Shown: piece by piece, positions 2,156 to 59,722 of the stretch
Layout: the number at the start of each line of letters is the position of its first letter
Numbering within the stretch: position 1 is the first letter of the stretch
Assembly (NCBI GenBank): GCA_035236585.1
Contig: CP141139.1
Span: 19,918,990-19,982,989, forward strand
Direction of reading: 5' to 3'
DNA: 64,000 bases
DNA from: Warburgia ugandensis
Taxonomy: Eukaryota; Streptophyta; Magnoliopsida; Canellales; Canellaceae
Made by a program: the position numbers and the translations under genes
The notes under the pieces: generated by a model
Seen by the model: only the letters and a program-made list of their open reading frames with translations
Database searches by the model: none
Told to the model about the DNA's origin: nothing

Positions 2156-3839
2156 CTTAAACATCAAATATCAGAACTATATTAGGAACTCTAATCTTAG
2201 TTAACAGAATTGTTCATCAAGTCTATTAAATTGTCTGAAGAGATAATAGAAATTTGATATGATCACCTTTTTCTAACTGTAAAGTATCACAACCAATTTC
2301 AACTTTCCAGATCAAGAAGCTATTTAAGAAATTAAATTTGAAACAATCAAGACCCATTCTAAAAGCAAACGCAATAAACAGTTAACTGTGAAAGGAAAAA
2401 GTAAAGAAAGAAATGAAAGAGAAAGATCTGGAGCTCCTATACCTATAATAAATAAACATTTTCATCTCTAAATCAGTGCATGATACATAAGATACTAATG
2501 GATCATATAAAGAATAGCAGAAGCATATTTCAAATCTGAGCATGTTAATTGAAGATTACTGAAAGAAATAATCCTCTAAGATTGTCAAATGTCAAGGGAT
2601 TTTAAATGACCGTTCCCAAAAAAAAACTAAAATAAATAAAATCGAACCAAAACTTTGTGTTACATGAATTTTCCTACCAAGACATGTAAACAGATAGATG
2701 TCATCTTCATTATAGCTATATTCTCCTTTATCACCTGCTAAAAAGAGCTATAAATATCTGGTGCATTGGAGCCCATGGCTATTGATTCAAATCTATTGGT
2801 TCGGCAAATCTATTAGTGCGGAAGATTTTCTTTACCAATTGAAATCTCCCAGTATATGAACGAATTAAAGAGTGCTTTTATCGATCAACTTTAAGCTAAT
2901 ATATATGTCACTTTCCATTTATCCCATCAGTAATGTAGGTAAAGAACCAAAAAAGGAATCTGCAGAATCCAGGTCCTCAGTCTAGGTTTCTGCCACTGGT
3001 TCAACTCTGCTTCTAAATACACGAAACATTAGAACAAAAGAGAGTTTACTGAATAGAAACAATACTGAATATTTGTTTCACACTGTTATAAACTATAAAC
3101 CTCTTGCTAGTTGGTACTTAGTTTTGAACTTGAAACGGTGTTAGGGGGAAACAGACAGACAATGAAATATGAATGTGAAAAAGCAGTCAAATCATGCTTT
3201 CATTTGCCTTAATCATACCTTTGCATTCCAATCTTTGTTGAAGATATTGCATCATAGTCCCTCTTGCTTGGTATGGATGTCAGACTTATATGAACCATCC
3301 AGTAGTGCATTGCTACCATGGACGTGATTTGCACCGATCCATACTTAAGTTGAAACATAAGTTGTCATTAATCTCACAAAATACCCCAGTTTCAGTGTAT
3401 TTCACAACATAAATTGCTGTGGAGGCTCTACGTGTAAGGCTCACTTGACCATCGTCTGTGAGAATCCTGCTTCTTAACTGAATCCTAAGTGGCATCCTGA
3501 CAGCCCATTCTTTTTGGAGTATTTCTGTTTTAGCATATGTGGCATCACCATTTACCCACGTAAATGTGAAGGTTGTGTGTCAGTTAATCTCTTCATCTGT
3601 TATTTCCTCATGTAATAAGTGAACTGAGCCATTTCTATTCAATTTTTCAACTGCCAACATAGTAAACTTCCTTCTGTTTTGAGTCGCAATGTAAGGGACA
3701 TGATAATGTGTCCTCTATCTTTGATTATAGCATACTCACCCTCTGCAAGCTAATTATATTAGAGTCAATTAAAGAGTGGGAATACTATTCTCAAATATGG
3801 GAGAGAAAATATCATTCCTGGAAATAAAATATCCATTTT
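2156..3839. other. AT-rich interval, no recognised gene
   Basis: No repeat family or gene was recognised. On the minus strand about 3660-3313, a stretch with one stop reads ATYAKTEILQKEW, MPLRIQLRSRIL and STAIYVVKYTETG. It looks protein-like, but I cannot match it to a family. It could be an upstream exon of an unrelated broken gene, or chance. Confidence 0.4.
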
Positions 3840-4583
3840 GTTTTTACATTGACTCGTGTTCACCCAGATCTAATTAATTCTTGTTCCATCTCTAATCTTC
3901 ATGTGATATTTGTTGACGATATTCTTGCTTTCCTTCAATTTATTTTTGTGTCTGCACTTTTTCTATCTTTTGGCTACTCAAAATCAAGGTGATTATATTT
4001 CTTCATTGTTATGGAAGGTTTGAATATGTTGGATGTTCTCTTTGCTAAGCCTTTACCCACAACTATGATGTGTGAGGGAAATAAGAAGAGAATAATCAAA
4101 GAAGAAAATTTTCTCTCAAATTCACTCAAGAACAATTACAAATACAAGGTTGCCACCTTTACAAGACTTACTCCCTCACGCTCTCACTCACTCCTCACTC
4201 ACCTCTTTATTTCTTCTTTCTCACTTGCTTACAAATGAGTGCTCCTCTATTTATACTTGTCATTCACCTACCACCTCCTCAGTGTGTAGTGGAGATTATT
4301 CCAAGTGTTTTTAATCTAATGGTTAACACTTTTCTAGAAATTATAACTTGAATCTTCCACACAACTCTGTAAATATCTACCTTAGATATTTCTAAAGATT
4401 AATCTAGATTTGTTGACTTTTATACACTTTTTAAAACATAGGCCTTTTAGATTATGGGCCTTTTGTGTAAAATTAGGGCCAAGCTCATGACAAAAAGAAG
4501 AAAGGGATGATATGGGCCCACTCATGTCACTGGGCCCACTCATGTGATTGGGCCCACATATATACTTTTGGTTTACTTCAACA
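3840..4583 (+). mobile_element. Possible Ty1/copia fossil: pol tail plus LTR fragment
   Basis: Around 4023-4060 the plus strand reads LDVLFAKPLPT, resembling the ADVLTKPLPT end of copia RNase H. Just downstream, about 4071-4583 starts TGTGAGGG, is rich in LTR-like sequence and ends CTTCAACA. No matching target duplication was found. The element is fragmentary and broken. Confidence is low because the match is short. Confidence 0.3.
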
Positions 4584-7178
4584 AAATATACATCCGTGCT
4601 TACAGAAAATTAGGTCTATCTAATGGCATGTTTCAACAGTCTGATCCTCTACAAACTCCAAAACAGTGTCACTGAATACAAATAGCATTATTAAGAAGGC
4701 TACAGTATTTATGCTAACTACTGAGCCATAATGCATCTGCAAATATTTGATGGAATAGTTATTAATGTTGACACTGTATAGGTGTTAGTGTAATAACCCC
4801 AATTTTTGTAAATTGATTGAGAAAAGCAATAAAATTTGAGTTTTTAGAAATTTCAGGCTGAAATATTAAGTTATTAGAAATTCTCTTTTTATAGAGATTA
4901 AAACATGATTTAAAACTTAAAAATTATGAATGTACTTAAAAAACTTATTGAAATGACACTAAGTACCTTCAATTTTGAGTTTAAAAAAAAATAATCTAAT
5001 TTTTATGAATAAAATGGTAAAATAATAATTTTAACAAATAACTGAGATCTGAGACATCAATATTTAGAATGTACTTGGAAATACAATTCCAATGCCACTA
5101 AGTACGCTCAATTCCTCATTGGGAGAATAAAATGAATTTTTCTCTATAAAAGGGCAAAATAGTCCTTTCACACCTCATGAGGTCCACAAGGGGCCCACAA
5201 ACGAATTCAACAACCAAAAAATATGTAATGAGTGGTCAAATCACTACCAGCTGCTAGTAGAGAAGAAGGTGATAGTGGAGGATCTAATGTTAATTTAATA
5301 TTTAAAAGAATTAAAACATAATTATTATAATTAATTATGAAAAATGCAAAACACATAAATGTCCCTCCAAAAATCCTCCAAAAATGTTCATTAAAATTCC
5401 CATGAAATCATCTTGCATACTCTGAAAAACCAAAACTAGATTCCATTTCAAAATTCCAAAACTCCCAAAAATCTCCCTTCTTGCACTTTCTCTCTCCTCT
5501 CTCTAATTGGAACAAGAGATCTAAATTCAATTAAGCATTCTGTTCCAAATTGAATCTCACCGTCCATACAATCATAGACTACCTTATCTACAAAACACCC
5601 AAATAAATTTCAAGATCCAATGGTAAAAGGGTATTTATTTCAAATTGGCCTTCAAATCTATGTTGTTTCTTCAATCAGGTAGGTGGACACACTTCCTATA
5701 TTTATTTCATGTTGTTTTATGTAATTTTTATTTTTTTGTAATTAGTTTTAAGTTCAAATTTATAAAAATAAAGTAAGGACTAGAACCCTTCAATTCTGGA
5801 TGAGTGAGGGCTCATATGGAAAGTCTAAGCCGTCCAATTGCTCCAAAAGGGTTCAAAACCCCTAAGGTAGAAGTTTCATGAAATTTTATAGAGTTTTGAG
5901 CCTTTGATTGAAGAGGATTGATTGGATGGTCCAAAACGGACTGTTCAATCTCCAAATCAAATTGGGATTGCGGGACGCACTGTGAAATGTCGTATAGAGA
6001 TGCACCCCTGTGACAGCATCTCCACGCGCATGCCATGTGCGGCATTGTCCCATTGGGACGACCTCGCCATAGCACAGGCACAGGGGGAGTGCGTTACTCA
6101 TGCGTCCTAGTGATGGGTGGTCGAAGACTGCTCCACTCGACCCGCTCTGCCCAATCAAAACAAGTTCTAAAGAAAAGAATTTTTGCTGCTTTGTTTTGCG
6201 AATTTTTTTTACTACTAAGGGCTTTGCCTTTTAAAAATGTATTACAAAATATGTTACAAAAACCCAGGTTGTCTCAGTTTGTGACTCAGGTTCTCACTCA
6301 AAGAGATCTTGACTGTTCTTTTCTGCATTGATTTTTTATTGTATTTGCTTTTGTTATGTCCATGTTAGTCCTCCAGACATAACTAGTTTTGTCCCAATGC
6401 TGCAACTTGTATATTTGTGGGATATAAACATGACCATGGGATACAGATAACAACATACTGGTGATCAACTTGTGGTCGGCACGAACTATAGAGAAAGAAA
6501 GAGCAAAGAGAGGTAAAATGATTAGAAAAAGTTTATGCGAGGAACAAGGCATCATCATGTGTAGAAGGCAAAGAGTTGGCGGTGTAATAGTGATGAAACT
6601 ATTGAACAAAAAAGAAATTATAAAAGAAGGCATCGATTTGACTCGTGACGCAATTTTAAGTCAATTAATTTATAGGAACCCTTCTACAATAAATATGTGG
6701 GTAATTTCTAAATGACATCATATCAATGCGGGACTCGAGCAATTGACTAGCCCATAGGTCTCTAGTAACTATAGAGTTTCTTCTCATTCAATGAGCATCT
6801 AATATTTCATAAAAAATGAGGCCAATATAATCCTTAAGCAAGGGCCAGCCTATCCAACTTTTAGGCATCAAGATACATTTCAGGTATGGATGATTTTCAT
6901 AAGAGATTCCAAACATATCATAAGACTACTATTCTTAAAAATCCGCACTTTTCCAAATCTAGAAAACTAACGCAATTCTAGGGTTGAGAGCTCACTTGAA
7001 ATTTTTTCTCTCCAATTTTGATTTAGTTTTCATTAGCCATTTTCTATGATTCTCAATTTTGAGTGGCGTAGATGGTGCGAAGAAATTATCCTTTTCTATG
7101 ATTCTCATTTTTTAACAGTTCAGATGGTGTGGAGAGGATTATCCACCTCTTCACTTCCTTAGAAGGCACTTTGAGTAC
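4584..7178. other. AT-rich repeat-like interval without a recognised gene
   Basis: The sequence from 4790 (TGTAATAACCCC) looks like the start of a long Ty3-type LTR, but I found no matching end or target duplication. The interval 5920-6140 is more GC-rich, with several short overlapping frames that match nothing I know. Nothing else is supported. Confidence 0.35.
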
Positions 7179-7364
7179 TGTTGATTACAAAGCACTCTAC
7201 ATCTTTCCTAATTTGATTTATATCAAAGAGTAAAACAAATATGCTTATGTAGAAGTGACATATTGATAAGCAGCAAAAAACAATGTAGATCTATTTACTC
7301 GATAATTTCTCTAATAGATATTATCTTATAGCATAGATGTTATCTAATAACATCACCCCTCAAA

Positions 7365-8046
7365 CTAATACAAACATAATTTCTAAATTAACTTGTTGAT
7401 TAAATGTTGTAATTGAAAGATTGCTACCTTGATAATTGACTAAAGAACATAATCTCAAGTTAATCTAAACTTCTTTTACCATATGGAGTAGATCCAAAAT
7501 TGACAATATCTTCTTCAATGAATCCAACTTGATTGTATTTCACAAGATTAAAAAAAGAAAAAAAAGACCCTAGTAATAGGCATTATATCCTTAAATACTG
7601 ATCACAAATTCGAATGACGATTGAAAGCAATCCATCAGAATATTTGGACCATCAATGGTATGTGGGTGCCTAATCCAGCAGGCTTTTCAAACAACTTTCA
7701 TGGGATTGATCTCTTAATAAAGAAATCAAATAACACAACTCCCTTATGAGTTGTGATCCCTCCACATTGATAATTGGTCTGAGAAATGGGGGCTTAGGCG
7801 ATCTGGGTGTTGGGAATAGCATGGATGTGATCATCGGTTGAGAACAAAATCTATTGTAGGAGAGGCAGATCGCATGAGATCGACAATGTTCAAGGCAGAC
7901 CGCATAAGATCAACGTGGATATGCATTCATAGATGAGATCAACAAGATTGGTGATCGTAGATTCAATTGTTAAGATCTGAGATCAATGACAATAGATATG
8001 ATCGACAAGATCTGAGATAGACAATGTGATCGACAGGATTGGAGAT

Positions 8047-8103
<57 letters not shown>

Positions 8104-8289
8104 CTTTGGCAAGAATGGCAATTTATTGTGAGCAAAGTCAACATGTTATGTGGCAGTCAAAAGTCATGTCAGGAATTAAGATCTAACCAAACATAAACCG
8201 TTTGACAAGATCTCAATGGCACAACAAATTACTAATACCTCATATCGGAGAAGCACTAGGTTTTATTAGCTCGAAGTCAACTAGCGTTG
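7365..8289. other. Interior of the TRIM-like element; no gene seen
   Basis: The sequence is AT-rich. At about 7900-8040 there is a run of near-repeats built on GATCGACAAGATCTGAGAT-like words, followed by the (AT)n tract. No coding sequence was recognised. Confidence 0.4.
8049..8100. repeat. (AT)n microsatellite
   Basis: About 26 uninterrupted AT units. Confidence 0.97.
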
Positions 8290-8894
8290 TGTCACGGACT
8301 TACATTACAAAGCCCGTGACCAAGGCCTATAGCCTCTAAGATGGGCTCACTTCGGACGTGACCCTGGCCTGAAGGACTTAGGTCTGCTATTGAAGAACCC
8401 AATGGAGGCCTGCTCAGCTAACGGGTTCAGCCTGAAGGACTCAAATCCATTTAAAGGATCCATAATCTAAAAGCCCCAACACATCAGGTAAATATCTAGA
8501 CTCTAGAATGGTCCAGGAGCTTCTTGAGTGTGGAGGAACCCAGGGCTTGTGTAGAGACTTCTAGAGTAGTCTCTAACCATTGGATGGTTAACATATCTAA
8601 ATATCCTCACCGTCCATTGAGGAGGTGGAAGGAGGCAAGCACCTATAAATAGGGGAGCTTCCTCACTTGTAAGGCATCCAAGAGAGTGAGTCATCCAAGT
8701 GCGTGAGCAAAGAGTGATCCTAGAGGGATCCAAGAAAGTTGTAAGCATCTTCAAGCAATAAAGCTACAAGTTCCTTCAAAGTTCTCTTTCAGTTGTTCTT
8801 CTCGTTTGAGTTTCAGTCAAGCTTACTTAGTTGGTTCGGAGTGAGAAGTCAATCTAAGTGCCGTACAGGAGTTTGAAAATCTCACCCCGTGACA
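8290..8894 (+). repeat. Left LTR of the Ty3-type element
   Basis: 605 bp, TG...CA ends, matching 11048-11674. It contains a TATA-like CTATAAATAGG at about 8642-8652 and an AATAAAG polyadenylation-like word near 8757, the usual U3-R layout. Confidence 0.92.
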
Positions 8895-8896
8895 AT

Positions 8897-8908
8897 TGGT
8901 ATCAGAGC
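8897..8908 (+). promoter_or_regulatory. Primer-binding site (initiator Met-tRNA)
   Basis: TGGTATCAGAGC, three bases after the left LTR, is the standard plant LTR-retrotransposon primer site. Confidence 0.95.
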
Positions 8909-8960
8909 GAAGGTTTGGCAAGTTAGGAGGGAAGGTTCGTATCATAGCTAGGAGAAGAAG

Positions 8961-10280
8961 ATGGTGGACGGTTCTCAAGTGTCAAATGTGGAGCTGGCTT
9001 GTGAAGATGCTCGGAGGAATAACAAGAGAGGTAAGTCCAAGGACTTAGTCTCTTCCTTAGAATCCAGACTTGTGAAGATGGAGTTAGTCGTTGCAAATAT
9101 CTCCACTTGGCTTGATGTAGAGCACCCAACGTTTGGGTCCCCTGAAGCTATAGGGGAAGAGCTTAAAGGAGAGTTGGAGAGCAGTCTGAACTCCATAAGG
9201 GATGCAAGTCAAGTGGAGTTCCAAACCCAATTGGATAAGCTGTTTACAAAGTTAGCTACACTTCGTGATGAGATGAGGGTAATGCGCGAGGATGTATCCT
9301 TATGCAAAGCAACTGTGGCGAATAGGACTCACACAGTTCGTGAGGTCCCTAAGATTGATGTCCCAAAGCCAAAAAGCTATAGTGGGACACGGGATGCAAA
9401 AGAGATCGACACATTCCTTTGGAACGTTGAGAGGTACTTCCGTCACTTACAAATGGAGGAAGATGAGCAGAAAATAGCTACTGCCTCACTCCACCTCACA
9501 GACAATGCTCTATTATGGTGGCATAGGAGAAGCATGGAGATCGAAAGAGGCACATTCTCCATCAACTCTTGGAATGAGTTTAAGGCTGATCTCAAGGTGC
9601 ATTTCTATCCTGAGAATGCACGCATAGAGGCTAAGGAGAAACTACAATGGTTGAGGCATACGGGGACTATTTGAGATTATATTTCGGAGTATTTAAACCT
9701 TTTGTTCGAGATCCCCGATATGTCTGAAGAAGACAAGTTCGTATACTTCTTCAGCGGACTGAAGGATTGGGCAAAGCAGGAGTTACGTCGTTATAACGTC
9801 TCTACTTTGTCCGCCGCCATCATAGCAGCCAAATCCTTAGTGGAAATAAGGAAGGATAATGGGAAATCAAATGGCCAAAAGAGTAGCCATGACAATGGTG
9901 GGGGGAGATAAAGGCTTTCATAGGAACAAGCCTGAGTCATCCAAACCAAGCTGGAAGGGGAAAAGCAAGGAGCAAGCCACTCTATTAAGAACTTGCTACT
10001 TTTGTGATAGACAGCACTTCATGCCGAACTGTCTAAAGAAAAAAGCCTTAAACTCAATGGTCGCACATCAGGAAGAAGGAAGTACTGGGGAAGATTATAG
10101 ACTATCTTCCTTCCAATATCTCAACACTGTCAAGTTGAAGGTTCCTAAATCCTCTACGGGAAAAAGGTTGATGTATGTGGACGTGTGTCTCAAAGGCAAA
10201 GGCACACAAGCTATGGTGGATACGGGAGCTTCTCACAACTTCATCTTTGAAGGAGAGGCTAAGAGGTTAGGCCTCAAATG
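8961..10280 (+). mobile_element. gag and protease region of the Ty3-type element (fossil)
   Basis: Parts in order are a coiled-coil-like N-terminal segment, then the plant Ty3 gag core with PKPKSYSGTRDAKEIDTFLW and DNALLWWHRR. Next come a CX2CX3HX4C zinc knuckle (CYFCDRQHFMPNC, about 9993-10031) and a protease active-site motif MVDTGASHNF (about 10213-10242). These are nucleic-acid-binding and polyprotein-processing domains of virus-like particles. The region is broken in a few places and is treated here as a fossil. Confidence 0.85.
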
Positions 10281-11035
10281 AAGAAAGATGAGAGCTGGAT
10301 CAAGACAATCAACTCCAAAGTCAAGTCCGTACTAGGAGCTGCCAAAGACATACTGGTCAAGGTGGGAGAGTGGCGAGGAATTATCACTTTGACTGTAGTA
10401 CCTTTGGATGATTATGAGGTTATCCTGTGAATGGATTTCCTCACCAAGGCCAGAGCAGTCCCTATGCCACATCTAGGGATGCTGAGCTTCTTTGATGAGA
10501 AGACCCCTTGTGTGGTCCAGGTGTTGAAGGAAGGAAAGGGGCACGGGAAGATGCTATCTGCCTTGCAGTTGATAGAAGTATCCACAAAGAGTGTGGAGTT
10601 CGCACAGCTAGACTTACGACGTCTAGGTGTCATCGAGGTGCTAAGGTGTGAAGGGTCCAAGGAGAAACCAATTGATGGCAAGAGGGTGCCCCAACCAGGA
10701 AACTCCAAGAAGTACAAGACCAAGCCAAGATGTGCAAGAACCATAGGAGCTGGTAGCTGTTATCCCCATGTGCAGGAGGCACAACAACGGAGTGCAGCAA
10801 AAGAGGAGCGCCAGAGGGGCGACAACTTCAAAAGGGCTCAAGTGTGCAAGAATGCACACAACATGAAGGAGCCAAAGAAAGTCCCTAAAGTGCACTAGAG
10901 GGGTTGGAGGGCAAGGTGCAAAGGGAGGGACACAATAGGGCATCCCATGGAGAGGGCAAGGCAACATGAGACTTGCTTAAATGCAATGAGTGCGACACCA
11001 GTGAAGATGTGTCCACGAGGGCGTCGACGTTATCT

Positions 11036-11047
11036 GGTGAGGGAGAA
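11036..11047 (+). promoter_or_regulatory. Polypurine tract
   Basis: GGTGAGGGAGAA lies immediately 5' of the right LTR. This is the usual position of the plus-strand primer. Confidence 0.8.
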
Positions 11048-11674
11048 TGTCACAGACTTACTTTACAAAGCCCGTGACCAAGGCTTACAGCCTCTAAGAT
11101 GGGCTCACTTAGGACGTGAACCTAGCCTGAAGGACTTAGGTCTGCTATTGAAGAACCCAATGGAGGCCTGCTCAGCTAACGGGTTCAGCCTGAAGGACTC
11201 AAATCCATCTAAAGGATCTATAATCTAGAAGCCCCAACACATCATGTAAACATCTAGACTCTAGAATGGTCCATAAGCTTCTTGAGTGTGGAGGAACCAA
11301 GGGCTTGTGTAGAGACTTCTAGAGAGAGTTCTAGAGTAGTCTATAACCGTTGGATGGTTAACATATGTAAAGATCCCCACCGTCCATTGAGGAGGTGGAA
11401 GAAGGCAAGCACCTATAAATAGGAGAGCTTCCTCACTTGTAAGGCATCCAAGAGAGTGAGTCATCCAAGTGTGTGAGCAAGGAGTGATCCAAGAGTGATC
11501 CTAGAGGGATCCAAGAAAGTTGTAAGCATCTTCAAGCAATAAAGTTACAAGTTCCTTCAAAGTTCTATTTCAATTGTTCTTCTCCTTTGAGTTTTAGTCA
11601 GGCTTACTTAGTTGGTTCGGAGTGAGAAGCCAATCTAAGTGCCACATGGGAGTTTGAAAATCTCAGCCGTGACA
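11048..11674 (+). repeat. Right LTR of the Ty3-type element
   Basis: 627 bp, collinear with 8290-8894. The length difference comes mainly from small tandem expansions near 11320-11335 and 11480-11495. Confidence 0.92.
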
Positions 11675-11891
11675 GTTGACATCAAATAAATAGCCCGATA
11701 TTTGGCTGGTGCCGGTCAGCTCACAGTGCTCCACTGATTGGATCTATTTTATTTTATTTTTTTTACTTTCTCTGTATGCGCATAGTATGATTAAAAAAAG
11801 GATCCATAGCCCACTCAAATAATACCACAAATAGGACAAATAATGGGTGTGGCTATCAAAATGAGGGAGGTGAGAACTCTTATCGAATTAA

Positions 11892-12215
11892 TTAGACTGC
11901 AGATCTAACAGACATGGTTTGTCTTTTGGAGTACATTTGAAGCATCAGAAGCATCATCACAGTCACCATCGCCACCACAAAAGCCATCCACACCGCAACA
12001 AATGTGAAAAGCATGAGGATGACGGCGATCTCCCTCTTCCTGTTGCTATTGCAAATTCTCCCGACGTAAAGGTCCAAAACAGATCTGGATCCAGCGATGG
12101 TGAAGAAATAGATCCGGATGACGAATCTGAAAGCGGCCTTAGCTCCGGCGAGATACTGGCCAGATGTGTATGCTGGATCAGTGCTCTCTCTCTCTCTCTC
12201 TGAGTTGGTTGCCAT
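11892..12215 (-). other. Unrecognised 107-codon frame with hydrophobic C-terminal half
   Basis: The frame opens MATNSERERES, where the ERERE comes from a (CT)n tract. It has AKAAFRFVIRIYFF and then a strongly hydrophobic segment (VILMLFTFVAVWMAF, VVAMVTVMMLLML) near the C-terminus. A membrane protein fragment is possible. It lies inside the TRIM-like element beside the transporter fragment, so it may be more captured sequence. I recognise no family, and chance is possible. Confidence 0.25.
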
Positions 12216-12277
12216 TACCTACTTTCTCGAGTAGGAAGAAGAAAATACCGAGATCTAAGAACGGAGATGTTAGAACC

Positions 12278-12740
12278 GAACCATCACATCCATGCATGTA
12301 ACAGTCACGGAAGTGGATTCGCAGAATCCGAACCCATAAGGTAGAGCAAAAAATATGCTCAAATGGATCCTTCCTTAGAGCTTCATTTGCTGGCATTCAA
12401 TCTCAAACTTATCATTGACAATGGCTTCTATATTGTACTCCCGGCCTTTAACTGTGTACAAGTCTGAGAAGAAGAGGGAAGCACTTAGTGTCATAGAGAT
12501 TGAAACTCCAACAAGAGATTGTGATCACTACATGCACGATCAAGGCATAACCAATGATAAGATTGGCAATGGCAAAGAATGGGTAGGTAAGATGGCTGAA
12601 AATGAAAGCACCAATGGCCGACCAATCCAGGGTGAAGGCACCAAGGTCCAGGCCCTGAAAGCCTGAACCGTGTTGTTGGGATAGGATTGACAACAAGGGA
12701 ACAGAGGGGGCTTCCAGTGCTCGATGGGGACATTCATCAT
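12278..12740 (-). pseudogene. Oligopeptide transporter (OPT family) fragment
   Basis: The minus strand reads GSGFQGLDLGAFTLDWSAIG, then FFAIANLIIGYALIVHVVI, YDTKCFPLL, GREYNIEAIVNDKFE and GRIHLSIFFALPYGFGF. These match consecutive parts of a plant OPT proton-coupled oligopeptide transporter: the GLGAFTLDWSA loop, the next membrane segments, the YNISAIVNDKFE-like loop and the GRIHLSTFFALTYGFGF helix. Intact members are about 700 residues with a dozen or more membrane segments. Only about 150 residues are present, with a stop after QQMKL and at least one frame change. It is a relic, lying between the LTR-like blocks of the TRIM-like element on the same strand. That fits capture by the element, though insertion of an element around a gene relic is also possible. 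Confidence 0.8.
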
Positions 12741-13330
12741 TCTGTAATCAGTGATGGTTGAAGAATACGGAAGATCGTCTGCTTCGGAGAAGATGGGAAG
12801 AAGCCTCGCCGTTGCAGATTAGAAACTGTGGCTCTCAGGGAAGCCAATGAAACTCGTACAAGGACACTGTGATAGAGATCGATGATCCGTAGCTTGCTAT
12901 GCAGATCGTCGATGTGCAAGCCCGGAACACGCAGGACGCTGGTGAGTTAGAGAGATCTGCAGAAACCCCAATTGTAAATACACAAGATACCGATAAGAGA
13001 TCTGAAGATATCTCAAAGTGAGAGATGAGGAAGAAGAAATATCTTATCAGGGGTGACAGATCTGATCAAGGAAACTGGACGGTCTCCTAGCCGAGTTATA
13101 GCTGGATTGCAGCCCAAAGAAGTTGGGCAGAGATCTAATCCGATATGCAGATGTTCACCCTCTAACTCTGATACAATATTAGAATCCACTTCTTTACTAA
13201 ATCGATATCAATGGGTAATATAAATATGCTTATATAAAAGTTACATATTAATAAGCACCAGAGATAATGTAGATCTGTTCAGTTGATAATTTACGTGACT
13301 TATTGATTTGATTGCTCTGGGTTTAGATAT

Positions 13331-22112: not shown

Positions 22113-22415
22113 AAGTCGAGTGGATTGCGGGAGGCTACTCTAAAGTACTTCGCGACATCAACATTGTGGATACTTCAACATTAAAGAAGGCGAAATGATA
22201 TTCCCAATAAGTAAAGTCGAGTGGATTGCGGGAGGCTACTCTAAAGTATTTCGCGACATCAACATTGTGGATACTTCAACATTAAAGAAGGCGAAATGAT
22301 ATTCCCAATAAGTAAAGTCGAGTGGATTGCGGGAGGCTACTCTAAAGTACTTCGCGACATCAACATTGTGGATACTTCAACATTAAAGAAGGCGAAATGA
22401 TATTCCCAATAAGTA
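22113..22415. repeat. Tandem triplication, three 101-bp units
   Basis: Units start at 22113, 22214 and 22315, each beginning AAGTCGAGTGGATTGCGGGA and ending CCCAATAAGTA. By eye the only difference is one base (AAAGTAC/TTTCG) in the middle unit. Near-identity implies very recent duplication or gene-conversion homogenisation. Confidence 0.95.
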
Positions 22416-22983
22416 AACATAACACAGTGATGAGCTCATATCCTAAATTACATGCTTTCATCTTACCATTGTTTTTCTTGAGTTATTTTTTGAGTTGAAA
22501 CTGGATAATAATAAAATTGATGTGACAAAGGATTAGTGGATTTAGAAAAAATAATTTTTTTTTCAAAAAACACATAGATACTAAATCTGTTTAAATTTAT
22601 TCAAAAATATGAGCATACTTAAAGACCTGACAAATTATATTTATTTTCTATCATATTTGCTTATGATATTGTTAGACAATAGAAACTTGAAAATTCAACA
22701 TGATCATGATATTCTTTGAAAAAAGTTTGGGACTTGCAAATTCAATCAAAGTTTAAATATTTTCTTTTGCATCTCGCTTAATTAAATTACCTGATCCTAC
22801 TAGTTTATCACAACTTCCTCCTTCTGATCTTCTTTTTGAGAATTGTTCCTTGGCATAATGAATCACTGTCATTTCTTGTCATAGAATAACATCTCTTTGG
22901 AAAGAGTTGATAATTGAAGTCTCAAAATCAGCCATTAATGACAAAACTCCAAAAGAAGTTATCCAAGTTAGTTTTCTATTTTC

Positions 22984-35252: not shown

Positions 35253-35277
35253 CTTTTAACTAGTTATTAGTAAGAAA

Positions 35278-35452
35278 AGGGCAGCCTTGATGCATGAAGC
35301 TCTTGGGTATATAGGGTTCGGGAAAGGGACAGACCACAAAGGTCAATAGTATGTAGCCTTACCTTGCATTTTGTAAGAAACTGTTTTCACGCCTTGAACT
35401 CATGACCTCAAGATCAGACAATTACAATTCTACTGTTCCACCAAGGCTCCCC
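35278..35452 (-). mobile_element. Au-type tRNA-derived SINE, near full length
   Basis: The reverse complement reads GGAGCCTTGG...GGTCATGAGTTCAAGGC...TGCAAGGTAAGGCT and ends in GGCTGCCC, the Au SINE order. The promoter is internal pol III: an A-box region, and a B box near GGTCATGAGTTC. It encodes no protein. Confidence 0.85.
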
Positions 35453-35866: not shown

Positions 35867-36973
35867 CATATGTCATTATAGGCTCTGATGCTGACAAGTG
35901 GTCTTAGCATTTAGGACCTTAAGAAGCCATATATTTTTATATCCTCCTCTGAAAATAAGAGAGGAATGATCCAATACAACATAGTAGACCCAAAGCCCAT
36001 GTGTTGAACACATGAAGGAACTCTCACTGGTCTGGACCTTCCGACTACTACTACCACCTAAATCCACGTTGGATTTCTCAATGAGCTAGTCAAACAATAT
36101 TCCTGTTCATCCAGTTGATCAACATTTAAGCTCTTGGATGTAGACCTCTCAAGATATTACTTTGCACCAACCAGAAATCCAATTCAAGGGTGAGTTTTTG
36201 GACAGGTGCAACCCACTACAGTGCCCACAAGTGGTGGTCCAATCATCAATCATCGACGTGTCTCAATCCGGATCACTCTATGTCCAGTCTGTGGAAGTTG
36301 TATCATAGTAAGACGCCTAGAAGAGTATTCCCCAAGATCATTTTCTTCCAAATAAAAATTCATCGTTACTAATAATGTAAGCATCAATCAATTGCAAACT
36401 GGCAAGATGGGTTAGTAGAGAGTACTTGAACTAAAGTAGAAGCCAAAAAGCAACACTACGTATCTCTGTGTATATCTCCCCAAGGGGCCCATTTTGGAGC
36501 TTGACCAAGGTGGAATTGATCTAATATATTCCGTGTTGTTATCTGTCTTAATCCAACTTCAATGGAAAGAACAAACAATAATACATCTTGACCCTCTTTG
36601 GTTCAAAAGTCCTAATACATGCAAACGTAGCTCATTATATTGTTAAGATAAAGAGAGAGCTTTTCTTGTCTGCTTTATGGAATGCAAATTGTAAAGAAAT
36701 TGTCTGGATTCGAGGGGATTCCATCATGTGATTAGGAAAGCCCCTAAGGAGACAGGACCCAACTCTCACACGGAGGTTGCTTGCAGAAGAAGCTCCCCAG
36801 GGAAAAAGCTAAGCCACATGTGTTTCACAGAAAACAAGGGGAATTTCATAAAGTAAAAAGAGCACTGGGGAATGGGGTTAAAAGATCTTTTCCTGACAAT
36901 ATTTTTATCAATTTCTGCAGCACAGAGTGCGAGGGGAGTTGGAGTGTGACTCTTAAGTAACGGGTATAAGGCA

Positions 36974-37088
36974 TGAAAATAGTCTCTTACAAGAATTCAA
37001 AGGCTGCATACTATAGACCCTTGTGGTCCCATCCCTTTTTCAAACACCGCATAGATAGGAGCTTCATACACAGGAGCTGCCCTTTTAA
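36974..37088 (+). mobile_element. Au-type SINE, 5'-truncated
   Basis: Only the downstream part is present: AGTCTCTTACA, GGCTGCATACTATAGACCC, TTGTGGTCCC and GGAGCTTCATACACAGGAGCTGCCC. The tRNA-like head is missing. Confidence 0.75.
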
Positions 37089-40475: not shown

Positions 40476-40665
40476 AGGAAGCCTTGGTGCAATGGTAGAG
40501 TTGTCGTCGTGTGACCTGGAGGTCATGGGTTCAAGGCACAGAAACAGCCTCTTAGAAAAATGCAAGGTAAGGCTACATACTATAACCTCTTTGTGGTCTG
40601 CCCCTTTCCTAGACCCCACCATATGTGGGAGCTTTGTGTGCCAATCTGTCCCTTTTGTTTTTTTG
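40476..40665 (+). mobile_element. Au-type tRNA-derived SINE, near full length
   Basis: It begins GGAAGCCTTGGTGCAATGGT and has a B box GGTCATGGGTTCAAGGC. It then runs through ACAGCCTCTTAGAAAAATGC and GTGGTCTGCCCC to GGGAGCTTTGTGTGCC, ending in a T-rich tail at about 40650-40664. This is the clearest copy in the window. Confidence 0.9.
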
Positions 40666-42262: not shown

Positions 42263-42709
42263 TTGAGTAAGCTACTTTCACTGCAAATGAGCTCATTCAG
42301 TGTTTGGTCCCTAGAATTAGTAGTCACCTTGTTGGTTCTAGTAGGAAAGGCTGGAGCCTCTTGAGCATAAATATCCAACTGTTGTATTGTAATAAAGGGA
42401 GCCATAGGAGGGTGAACATGTGACCATTCACCTACTAAACACACATTTCTTATCGGCCTTCACTGCAAGCCCACTTGCCTCACCTTGAGTAAGCTACTTT
42501 TGCTGCAAATGAGCTCATTCAGCATTTGGTCCCTAGAATTAGTAGTCACCTTGTTGGTTCTAGTAGGAGAGGCAGGAGCCTCTTGAGCATTAATATCCAA
42601 CTGTTGTATTGTAATAAAGGGAGCCATAGGAGGGTGAACATGTGACCATTCACCTACTAAACAGACATTTCTTATCTGCGGCCTTCACTGCAAGCCCACT
42701 TGCCTCACC
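42263..42709. repeat. Direct tandem duplication, two copies of 222-225 bp
   Basis: Copy 1 is 42263-42484 and copy 2 is 42485-42709, both starting TTGAGTAAGCTACTTT and ending CACTTGCCTCACC. By eye they differ at about ten positions. On the minus strand each encodes a similar open frame containing GEWSHVHPPMAPFITIQQLD and TRTNKVTTNSRDQ. I cannot assign that peptide. Confidence 0.93.
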
Positions 42710-53097: not shown

Positions 53098-53222
53098 TAA
53101 AGGGCAGCCTGGTGCATGAAGCTCTCACGCATGCTAGTTCTGGGGGAAGGGGCGGACTACAAAGTGTCTATAGCATACAGCCTTACCTTGCATTTTGAGA
53201 GGCTCTTTCTACATCTCAAATC
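53098..53222 (-). mobile_element. Au-type SINE, 5'-truncated
   Basis: The plus strand shows the SINE tail reversed: AGGGCAGCCTGGTGCATGAAGC, GGGGCGGACTACAAAG, ACAGCCTTACCTTGCATTTT. The tRNA-like head is missing. Confidence 0.8.
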
Positions 53223-54659: not shown

Positions 54660-54950
54660 GAAAACCAAATGTATTTCCCCACAAAATGATATTCTCGAAA
54701 AGTAAAAAGAAATATTAAGGGGGGCATTTCATATTTTATTTATGCAATTTTGATATGAGATTTTACTGTAAATGATTCTTGCTTCCGCATACAAGTGGTC
54801 AGTTATGCTATTGCCTATTTCCACTTGGAAATTATGAGGCCCTTCATTCCAATTATCTGAACGGTGAATCTGATAGACTTTGCAGTCCGCGAGCCATGCA
54901 CCGAATCCAGAATTCAGCCTGTGTGGCAATTTTAACCTCTTATATTATAT

Positions 54951-55088
54951 CACTTGAGGCCTCAGGTTCAAGGTGTGGAAATAGTCTTTTTTTAAATGCA
55001 AGGCAAGGCTGTGTATTATGGACCCTTGTAGTCCGCCCCTTCTCCAAACCTTACATATGCAGGAGTTTCGTGCACTGGGCTGCCCCTT
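54951..55088 (+). mobile_element. Au-type SINE, 5' part degraded
   Basis: CCTCAGGTTCAAGG (B-box region), AAATGCAAGGCAAGGCTG, GACCCTTGTAGTCCGCCCC and GGAGTTTCGTGCACTGGGCTGCCCC follow the SINE order. The head upstream of 54951 is barely recognisable. Confidence 0.8.
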
Positions 55089-57429
55089 ATATTAGATCAC
55101 TAAGGAACAGTTAGAAACAAAGAAATAAATGCTGCAGCCATTCTTCAGCAAACAGTCCAGAATCAGAGGCTTCACAATCAAGTAGCGGTCCTAACTTCAT
55201 TCTTACATCTGACAAAGCATGATATGAATGATTTACATACAAAAATTATCCACCATTGTACATTCTAAAGCCTTTGATTCATGGATGTAGACGCTTGATT
55301 CAATATCTTCAAAGGCTTCAAATCGGACGCTGGAATTTTTTGGTTCGTGCCTCTTTGCTGGATCCATAGATTTTCATCATTGAATGAGTAGTCCCGTACT
55401 TTTCTTTTTTTCTTGAAAAAAAAAAAAAAACCCTTTTAGTTATGGCTTATACTAGCTAATTTGACCCTTTATAATTATAAAGTCTTAGTGAAGAATTATA
55501 CAAAACACCTAGTAACCTATTATTCTAATTTATAAATCTACTTTAAATCTTCCCGCCAAAGAGAAAATGCCAACGCAAACCTCCCACAAAGCGTAACAAG
55601 GAGAAGTGCCTTGTTGTCTGCGACCAACTAAGCCAGACACCTTCCAAGTCCAACTATGATTTGTTACTATTTAACTAACCCAAAATTAAGCTAGTTCCCA
55701 CTCATTATAATAAGCAAGATCCATTAGCCGAGTGCGGATTCCAGCACTGCAAATGTAAGTCTTGATTCATAGCGCCTGCCATTTGGAGCAGTGGGTCTTG
55801 CTGTTGACTGTGAGAGGCTCCTCCATGCTCCAGAGCTGCAAATGTAGGTCCTGATTTATTATACACATACTTAATAGAGAAGTAAATATACTAATAGCTT
55901 GTCAAATACCTTATAATCACTTAAATTTAAATTTAGTATTCTGTAAGATCACGATTTTCACTATTAGTTGCATTTGTATAATAAATAATGGATCATTCCC
56001 CACCTTATTTTAAAAAAAAAACATAAGTCGGCAAAAGGAGCAAGGTAGGCCATGTGGATGGATCGTTTTTTGGTAAGAATTGTCTAGGAGAAGCTCTTAG
56101 AAGACATTTATTTGATTAGATGAGACTGAGTAATATGTATTCATAATGATAATCCGGCCATATCTCAGTTGGAAGGTGTTTTCTGTCACGATCATAAGGT
56201 CAATGCCGTTTAGGTAAAGATGCTTACTGGTTTATAATGTCATATGCCAAGTAATTGTCCTTAATTAAATGTATGGCCAGAAAATAAAATGGAAATTACT
56301 GCAATCATAAAAAAAAAAATCCTCACATAAAAGGCTTAGAATCAAAATAGTATAAATTTCATACTCTCTGAAATCTGGACAAGTGGTTTTTCTTTCTTTA
56401 AAAAAAAAAATTTCTAATGAAGGACTGGCCCCAACTTATATCTTACCACTCTTATTCAAGTTAAGAATGAAGCAAGTCATTTACACACTCTTCTAAATCT
56501 AACCCCTAGCCAAAGAGGAAAACGGTGACTCAAAGCTGCGACCATACATATTTTAGAAGAAATGCTGAGTCATTTAGAACGAAACATTAGACATTCGTTG
56601 GCTTTAGAATTAGATTTCTACACATCCATCGTAAAATCACCTCTCAAATTATTGGTGCTTATGTATTCAAGTGGGTTCAAGTTAACTATACCAAATCCTT
56701 AATCATATTAATATGATTTTCAATAAATCACTTTATCTTGGGCAGATAAAGGGAATCTGATTCATCACCTACATGCCCTTTATGCCTAGTCATTCCGATG
56801 AACACTTGGTCTCCCGTCGTTGTAAAACGCTCCGGTTGTCTACCAATGATACTGATTGAACTAGAATTAGGTGATCCATAAATGAACTCAGAGCTTTGAC
56901 TTCCCATCAAGTGGCATAAGGAGGTACCTCTCCCATAGTAAGTCAGATGTTTGAGATTAGGGGTTTGTGTATCTCTCAAAAAAATAAAAGAAAAGGAAAA
57001 GAAATTTCAAAAGCCAAGGATTTGTGGGATTAGTTGTTGTTATTATTATTATTATTTCAGTTAATAAAGTATGTAGTGGCTCATCTAGGCGGATTCTTTT
57101 AATGTAATCTCATGGTTTAAGCATTCTATTCCGCCACCTTCTAGTTTTTGGTCTACTATGGATAGAATTGAACTGATTAGAGAAAGATCAGAAATTCTGT
57201 TTACACATTTGCCTCACTCAGCCAACGAAAGAAAAAGGACTAGCTAAAGAGGGAGTTCGCCTTAACTCCATGAGAATAACATGGAATGGAGAACTCTTCT
57301 GATCCTCCCCCTTGTTAAAAAAATGAAATGTGCAGTGGCGCAAAGAGGACTCTCTCACTTGGGTCACAAGGGTTCAGGGTTCAAGGTTGTGCACAAGGGG
57401 CATGTGTGTCCAACTTTCAAAATTAAAAA
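55089..57429. other. Intergenic sequence, no recognised gene
   Basis: AT-rich with several A-runs. A minus-strand frame at 56728-56979 (containing GRGTSLCHLMGSQSSEF and GRQPERFTTTGDQVFIG) looks protein-like, but I cannot assign it. The interval 57340-57400 has a GGGTTCAGGGTTCAAGG word that may be another decayed tRNA-like head. Confidence 0.35.
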
Positions 57430-57606
57430 AAGGGCAGCCTAGTGTATGAAACTACTACATATGCAGGGTCCGGGGAAAGGATGGACCTCCAGGGTCAATC
57501 ATTCACTCCTTGCCTTGTATTTTGGAAGGTGCTGTTTTCACACCTTAAACCCCATGACCTTTAAGTCACATGACAACAGTTCTACCATTGCACCAAGACT
57601 CCTCTT
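57430..57606 (-). mobile_element. Au-type SINE, near full length
   Basis: The plus strand runs from AGGGCAGCCTAGTGTATG through GGGTCCGGGGAAAGGATGG and CACCTTAAACCCCATGACCT to ATTGCACCAAGACTCC, a complete reversed Au SINE. It is flanked by A-rich sequence. Confidence 0.88.
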
Positions 57607-59470: not shown

Positions 59471-59592
59471 TGTTGATTTAAAAATTTAGATATGCTTGTA
59501 AGTAATTTCCTTCGTAAGTCTTTATATATTTTTATATATAAAGACTTACGAAGGAAATTACTTACAAGCATATCTAAATTTTTAAATCAACA
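59471..59592. repeat. Perfect palindrome, 59-bp arms and 4-nt loop
   Basis: The left arm runs TGTTGATTTAAAAATTTAGA ... CTTTATATAT, and the right arm is its exact reverse complement, ending ATCAACA at 59592. Perfect arms mean a very recent origin. The right arm ends exactly where the SINE at 59593 begins. Confidence 0.97.
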
Positions 59593-59722
59593 GTCTGGTG
59601 CACAAAGCTCTCTCATCGTCTGCAGAGTCATGGAAGGGGCAGACCAATAGGAGGTCCTTTCCATGTCTCAAACCCATAACCTCAAGATCATAGGACGATA
59701 ACTCTACCATTCTGTAAAGCCT
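59593..59722 (-). mobile_element. Au-type SINE lacking its 3' end, joined to the palindrome
   Basis: The plus strand has GTCTGGTGCACAAAGCTC, GGAAGGGGCAGACC, CTCAAACCCATAACCTC and CCATTCTGTAAAGCCTC, a reversed SINE with an internal gap. The usual A-run plus GGGCAGCC end is replaced by the palindrome's right arm. CTTTATATA after the SINE (59723-59731) also occurs in the left arm (59519-59527), a possible target duplication. Confidence 0.75.

Follow-up and report, generated by a model that had tools for sequence, protein, structure and literature searches.

A decayed small-LTR retrotransposon of Warburgia ugandensis carrying an oligopeptide-transporter exon fragment and pieces of other host genes

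Structure of the locus

The window analyzed here, a stretch of 64,000 nucleotides from the genome of Warburgia ugandensis (C14:19918990-19982989; GenBank contig CP141139.1), contains on its minus strand the remains of a retrotransposon with small long terminal repeats (LTRs), between which lie a fragment of an oligopeptide transporter (OPT) gene, pieces of other host genes, and a second, unrelated LTR element (Table 1). Contigs and related loci elsewhere in the genome, which comprises 1.12 Gb in 14 contigs, are designated by C and L numbers.

A first-pass annotation had paired the two repeat blocks as the ends of one minus-strand element, and alignment confirmed them as the decayed LTR pair of a single, polymerase-less small-LTR element: positions 7196-7308 and 13185-13292 align over 113 columns at 77% identity (E ~1e-18 within the window), with a local score of 95 against a best score of 46 in 2000 shuffles of two-base blocks. 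The internal signals are also in place, as both the polypurine tract, which the annotation saw abutting a TG at 7352, and the primer-binding site, which it put at 13164-13176, directly adjoin their respective LTRs. From the purine tract and the primer site, which we take to be complementary to the initiator Met-tRNA, the outer element is probably Copia-type. The annotation had noticed no polymerase, and a Pfam scan of nine interior open reading frames (ORFs) of the window likewise gave no polymerase match. The outer LTRs are identical at 109 of 138 ungapped positions (K 0.247). At 1.3e-8 substitutions per site per year, a rate often used for grasses that provides only a rough scale outside them, these few sites correspond to about 9.5 million years.

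The whole interior had been taken as part of this element. That is supported for the OPT piece, whose two ends both fall within the element, but the interior as one unbroken element is ruled out by the nested LTR element in its middle. The direct repeat GTTG abuts the nested element on both sides (8286-8289 and 11675-11678), and its LTRs are identical at 568 of 603 ungapped positions (K 0.061; 90% counting gaps), or about 2.3 million years on the same rough scale, so that by LTR divergence it is younger than its host. Pfam matches within it are Ty3_capsid, Retrotrans_gag and Asp_protease_2, with no polymerase match in a scan of its ORFs. It is this nested element, and not the outer one, that resembles TR-GAG elements, which we take to consist of LTRs and gag with no polymerase; it differs from them by the additional protease-like stretch.

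Less the nested insert, the outer element is about 2.75 kb long. Its description as similar to terminal-repeat retrotransposons in miniature (TRIMs) holds for the LTRs, which fall in the 100-250 bp range with TG...CA ends, for the primer site and polypurine tract, and for the lack of retrotransposon proteins, the gag in the window being that of the nested element. It does not hold for size: TRIMs are mostly below 1 kb, a length exceeded both here and throughout a set of ten family members of 2.3-3.0 kb described below, and we therefore use the term TRIM-like rather than TRIM.

Table 1. Features of the outer element and of the insertion within it, in window coordinates.
Feature	Position	Strand	Remarks
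3' LTR	7179..7352	-	174 bp, TG...CA; exact bounds; TGTTATTAG start at 7352, CA end at 7179
Polypurine tract	7353..7364	-	TTTGAGGGGTGA; directly adjoins TG of 3' LTR; equivalents in relatives
Conserved family 3' interior	7365..7815	-	with 3' LTR, matches eight relatives (L034-L040, L044) over most of 7196-7815
3' interior module	8121..8265	-	common to L033 (81%); 8122-8239 also in L039 (80%)
Nested unrelated LTR element	8290..11674	+	LTRs 8290-8894 and 11048-11674; TR-GAG-like
PRP4 kinase N-terminal exon fragment	11936..12057	+	antisense to element; 88% to first coding exon of L017 gene (C3)
PNRC-motif gene fragment	12087..12230	+	antisense to element; 86% to L016 gene (C1)
Class III peroxidase fragment (probable)	12262..12323	-	sense; reads RIHFRDCYMHGCDGSVLTSP; adjoins OPT piece
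Captured OPT exon fragment	12324..12680	-	357 bp; sense to element; small indels
Module	12695..12853	-	wholly or partly in OPT-free relatives L024, L027, L028, L040
Module shared with L047	12811..13039	-	80% identity to L047 (C3)
Primer-binding site	13166..13176	-	TTGTATCAGAG; directly adjoins 5' LTR; read in sequence
5' LTR	13177..13330	-	~154 bp, outer end decayed; primer site next to it; family LTR matches

The OPT fragment and its neighbors

The same-strand OPT coding sequence of the first-pass annotation is represented by the ORF at 12451-12747 (minus strand), which matches the OPT family PF03169 (E 3.9e-7). The piece corresponds to nucleotides 159-517 of a 566-bp stretch, read as one exon, in two near-identical genes on C8 (L030 and L031; 87% identity), and it is 78% identical to an OPT gene on C7. 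Small indels relative to the parent cause the window copy to read as a pseudogene, and since the piece lies inside a single exon, its intron content is uninformative. Apart from this piece, the C8 OPT gene stretch has seven further matches in the window, every one of them to a single intronic part.

Capture of this piece by the element, as the annotation had proposed, is supported by a locus on C13 (L029), where an OPT stretch with identical breakpoints at 159 and 517, 85.6% identical to the parent, lies next to the leader seen in the window and an incomplete LTR. Three other loci, L025, L050 and L051, share the upstream end (159-163) and run to ~232, 211 and 244, respectively, with family LTR matches present in L025 and L050. 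At exon position 168 all five element copies (the window, L029, L025, L050 and L051) have A, while both C8 genes and the C7 gene have T. The distance between the window and C13 copies (K 0.147) is less than what separates each of them from the parent added together (0.130 for the window and 0.117 for C13), as expected from a shared stem after capture, and because the C13 copy is the same composite with identical OPT breakpoints, the chimera predates the split of these copies. At the upstream junction, the OPT-free loci L024 and L040 also read CCCAACAA, the same eight bases as the OPT exon, and then diverge; by simple arithmetic, an identity of at least eight bases at a given junction has a chance of about 1 in 13,000. 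Since the sequence just before CCCAACAA aligns poorly, this microhomology is suggestive only.

The OPT intron of L030 contains a dispersed repeat of about 150 bp (~1408-1564 of the gene stretch used), of which seven copies are found in the window (35276-35423, 36945-37085, 40510-40662, 53099-53212, 54944-55075, 57426-57571 and 59590-59646). Elsewhere in the window are tandem duplications at 22113-22417 and 42263-42709, whose copies are 95-99% identical.

The element also carries pieces of other host genes. The product of the L016 parent has a PNRC motif (PF15365, E 4.2e-7), and the downstream stretch of L017 codes for a kinase homologous to PRP4, whose best PDB match has an E-value of 5.4e-35. 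The OPT, PNRC-motif and PRP4 kinase parents lie on C8, C1 and C3, and all three window pieces match, as read, within single exons. A third host gene besides PNRC and PRP4 kinase is probably represented by the peroxidase piece (PF00141 over profile positions 17-38, with an E-value of 1.7e-4 that falls short of the curated cut-off), which is common to L029 and is shared by L033 from 12316 downward. The annotation's second hydrophobic frame does exist (11895-12218, minus strand, 108 amino acids), but as a gene of its own it was rejected, its best Pfam E-value being 0.1 and its sequence the reverse strand of the PNRC and PRP4 kinase pieces.

Besides the window, the PNRC piece recurs in L020, L022, L023, L026, L029 and L033, and 14 additional genome matches beyond these seven loci overlap it. 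Weak similarity to the family near a 5' end is seen in L020, L022 and L023, and L026 shows short matches only. The PNRC and PRP4 kinase pieces are adjacent in the window, L033 and L029, and among the loci compared they are joined by the full OPT piece in the window and L029 only. The similarity of L033 to the window breaks off at 12316, no more than eight bases from the end of the OPT piece. The PRP4 kinase piece of L029 (1049-1095 and 5615-5691) is split by an insert of about 4.5 kb with an 8-bp overlap, as from a transposon with an 8-bp duplication.

A family with shared ends and differing cargo

At least 41 matches to the 3' LTR were found in the genome, query included, a lower bound since 40 of 102 candidates were scored, and several of these are paired 2-3 kb apart. 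The annotation had suggested looking for copies with the same ends and for OPT within them; such copies exist and flank interiors of like layout, and OPT is present with both breakpoints in L029 and with the upstream end in the three loci named above. The relatives' LTRs, of the form TGTTATCAGATAAG...TCTAACA, have cleaner ends than the window copy. Their primer sites are of the TGGTATCAGAGC type with single-base variants (TGGTATCA-, TAGTATCA- and TGATATCA-type), and the site is lost in L036. Perfect 5-bp target duplications flank L035 (TTTCT) and L037 (CATCT), with four of five bases matching in L034 and three of five in L036.

Eleven two-ended relatives, the window among them, were examined. 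Eight were found by the LTR search alone (L034-L040 and L044), while the window and L025 were reached via OPT and L047 via a cargo match; L047 matches the 3' region of the window from 7282 on. Ten of the eleven (the window, L025, L034, L035, L036, L037, L039, L040, L044 and L047) are 2.3-3.0 kb long, and in most of these the 5' LTR and leader (~105-210 nt) and a 3' part of ~630-855 nt are shared with three or more of the others. In L025 the shared 3' part is 383 nt and the 3' LTR match is weak. The bulk of the middle is unshared among the ten. The eleventh member lies in L038 at 4307-5609 (~1.3 kb); it is absent from the ten-element comparison and from the main interior scan, and five of its ORFs were scanned separately. 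L038 (C4:31739500-31748000) also contains a third LTR copy, oppositely oriented, at 3302-3455. At one end of L040 (C5:57075000-57084500) three partial LTR copies follow one another, and directly past the other end lies an LTR copy in opposite orientation (2449-2740 and 5193-5327).

The middles of 16 related loci contain 179 ORFs of at least 60 amino acids, of which 106, hand-picked and mostly the longest, were scanned against Pfam; none of the 106 matched reverse transcriptase, integrase or gag families. Counting host domains at E<=0.01, with curated cut-offs as a stricter tier, eight of the eleven two-ended elements carry a host-domain piece, nearly all from different genes, and six (the window, L025, L034, L036, L040 and L044) do so above the curated cut-offs. 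For the eight elements found by LTR search alone, the corresponding counts are six and four.

L025 has a 270-amino-acid open frame matching Orn_Arg_deC_N (1.8e-22), L027 a peroxidase (2e-18), L034 cystathionine-synthase-like (Cys_Met_Meta_PP, 3e-11) and acyl carrier (3.4e-5) domains, L036 LRRNT_2 (6.4e-5), L037 LRR (7e-4), L039 MLLE (1.3e-5), and L044 an aquaporin match (MIP, 9e-6). In L040, TPP_enzyme_N (4e-9) and tubulin (6.7e-5) matches are fused in a single frame of 121 amino acids (2830-3192). L020 has a piece of a ubiquitin-conjugating enzyme gene (UQ_con, 8e-24) in antisense. Other matches of the interior scan, outside these locus-assigned pieces, were DUF568, UBA_HYPK, DAP10 and AGTRAP. 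The MLLE fragment of L039, which is PABP-like, occupies two neighboring frames (4018-4496), suggesting an internal duplication of cargo.

As a control, 106 of 157 ORFs of at least 60 amino acids were scanned in the flanks of eight loci (43.1 kb), where the families matched were RVT_2, zf-RVT, chlorophyll a/b-binding, WD40-type and YrhC (two host, two related to reverse transcriptase, and one stray). The interiors of the same eight loci (64 ORFs scanned, 18.8 kb) had eight host-domain pieces and no reverse transcriptase. With strands assigned by reading of the alignments, and with pieces within one element not being independent, 12 of 15 identified pieces are in sense to their element (two-sided p 0.035), or 12 of 14 (p 0.013) when the L020 piece is left out.

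Origin of the composite

We think it likely, with a probability of roughly 70%, that the window element is an old copy of a non-autonomous small-LTR family that gained pieces of host mRNAs by template switching and whose members later swapped modules. Under this interpretation the family would retain the parts needed in cis, namely the promoter and LTR, the primer site with a short leader, and the 3' part with the purine tract, and host mRNAs would enter, along with element RNA, the particles of an autonomous helper relative whose existence we infer. Reverse transcriptase could then jump at short identities into and out of an mRNA, the chimeric cDNA would integrate through its intact ends, and later copies might exchange modules again. 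The window element would in this way have gained OPT, and probably peroxidase, in sense, and PNRC and PRP4 kinase in antisense; the chimera would have left at least one sibling, on C13, before decaying and receiving the gag-only LTR element. The excess of sense pieces, their adjoining arrangement, the fixed ends and the breakpoints common to several copies fit a history in which templates were switched during reverse transcription and the chimera then spread.

Several observations weigh against this interpretation. Antisense pieces (3 of 15) are not predicted by simple mRNA copying. For the C13 copy no 3' end was located, even with 2 kb added on the left, and none was found for the element in L020, leaving its UQ_con piece unbracketed; L051 has no clear family LTR match. 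Before CCCAACAA at the OPT junction there are 14 bases in the OPT-bearing copies and 8 in L024 and L040, and the alignments of the OPT-free L027 and L028 end short of the junction. Pfam recognized no host domain in L035, L038 or L047, extra ORFs included, and the tubulin, acyl carrier, MLLE, L037 LRR and window peroxidase matches are below curated cut-offs.

The antisense minority, together with the single-exon nature of the window pieces, keeps alive capture at the DNA level, by break repair or as inserted Helitron or Pack-MULE cargo, with retrotransposition only spreading the pieces afterwards. This would easily explain the antisense PNRC, PRP4 kinase and L020 pieces, and introns fail to discriminate where pieces lie within single exons; even so, we regard it as unlikely, while still worth serious consideration, given that 12 of the 15 pieces are sense and that pieces adjoin with short gaps or none. 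No transposon ends were noticed around the pieces, though no search aimed at them was made. It is much less probable that the LTR-like blocks are unrelated solo LTRs with decayed intergenic DNA and gene relics between them. The low identity of the LTRs, the decayed outer end of the 5' LTR, and the lack of a recognizable target-site duplication around the window copy are what such a reading would predict and count against a single element, but the primer site and purine tract are correctly placed, ten loci have the two-ended layout, two of them with perfect duplications, and the OPT composite recurs on C13 beside the same 5' end. As for a local OPT gene hit by elements, 357 bp of same-strand OPT coding sequence could be read as its remnant, and a longer collinear relic extending beyond the repeats is what the first-pass annotation had named as grounds for abandoning capture. 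No such relic is seen: the piece ends inside the element, nothing else in the 64 kb matches coding sequence of the C8 OPT gene stretch, and the same breakpoints, inside one exon, occur on another chromosome, which refutes this reading and makes it practically untenable.

Relation to known systems

Capture of gene fragments by TRIMs and by larger LTR elements is already in print. Gao et al. (2016; PMC4717578) reported gene fragments in 30 TRIMs from two legumes, which belong to seven subfamilies, measure 1,172-1,449 bp and contain exons only, one of them with pieces of three genes; 225 of 289 TRIM subfamilies were under 1,000 bp. The soybean elements of the GmaRetroS15 type described there are similar to the present family in their short LTRs, lack of proteins, exon pieces of up to three genes, mostly several copies made after capture, and 5-bp duplications. 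The differences are that the elements here are mostly 2.3-3.0 kb, that cargo here varies within one family, and that intron loss is shown only there.

A 2026 review (PMC13317346) covers Bs1, an Arabidopsis TRIM case, Rider, VejuL and template switching. Maize Bs1, as described in the review sections consulted, is like the window element an LTR element with pieces of three host genes, but it is one chimera with one gene set, whereas here the sets vary and some pieces are antisense. Like Bs1-like LTR elements with captured host genes in general, the window element has host exon pieces between its LTRs and parents elsewhere in the genome, and copies were made after capture. LTR capture as such is common, with 672 captured genes reported in rice, 1,343 in sorghum and 424 in maize (Jiang and Ramachandran, 2013; PMC3726574). 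These too are genes inside full-length LTR elements, but any annotated gene was counted there, and the passages of that study considered here describe no single small-LTR family with changing cargo. For chimeric LTR elements of the Triticeae, namely template-switch complexes and VejuL, Sabot and Schulman (2007; PMC1950507) proposed that reverse transcription had switched abnormally from one packaged RNA to another; these are fusions of retrotransposon sequences, and the term "host gene" is absent from that paper. The literature searched, which mostly lay outside subscription journals, contained no small-LTR family with cargo that changes from copy to copy. Multi-exon TRIMs and hundreds of LTR-captured genes being known, the new aspect is cargo that differs from copy to copy in one small-LTR family.

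Tentatively, and with somewhat less than even confidence, we suggest that the family acts as a chassis-and-cargo retrotransposon, comparable among retroelements to Pack-MULEs, in which fixed 5' (~105-210 nt) and 3' (~630-855 nt in most) modules mobilize an exchangeable middle of 1-1.8 kb that grew by repeated template switching between host mRNAs and sibling elements. If so, most copies would differ, often as multi-gene chimeras, and the series from PNRC (at least seven loci) to PNRC with PRP4 kinase (three) to both with OPT (two) would record the order of assembly. Small-LTR gene capture has so far been discussed mostly from a few chimeras, and a family of this kind would replace inference from isolated examples with counts of template switches, microhomology use, strand bias and the stepwise assembly of exons. 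The cargo pieces could also give rise to RNAs, both sense and antisense, with homology to host genes.

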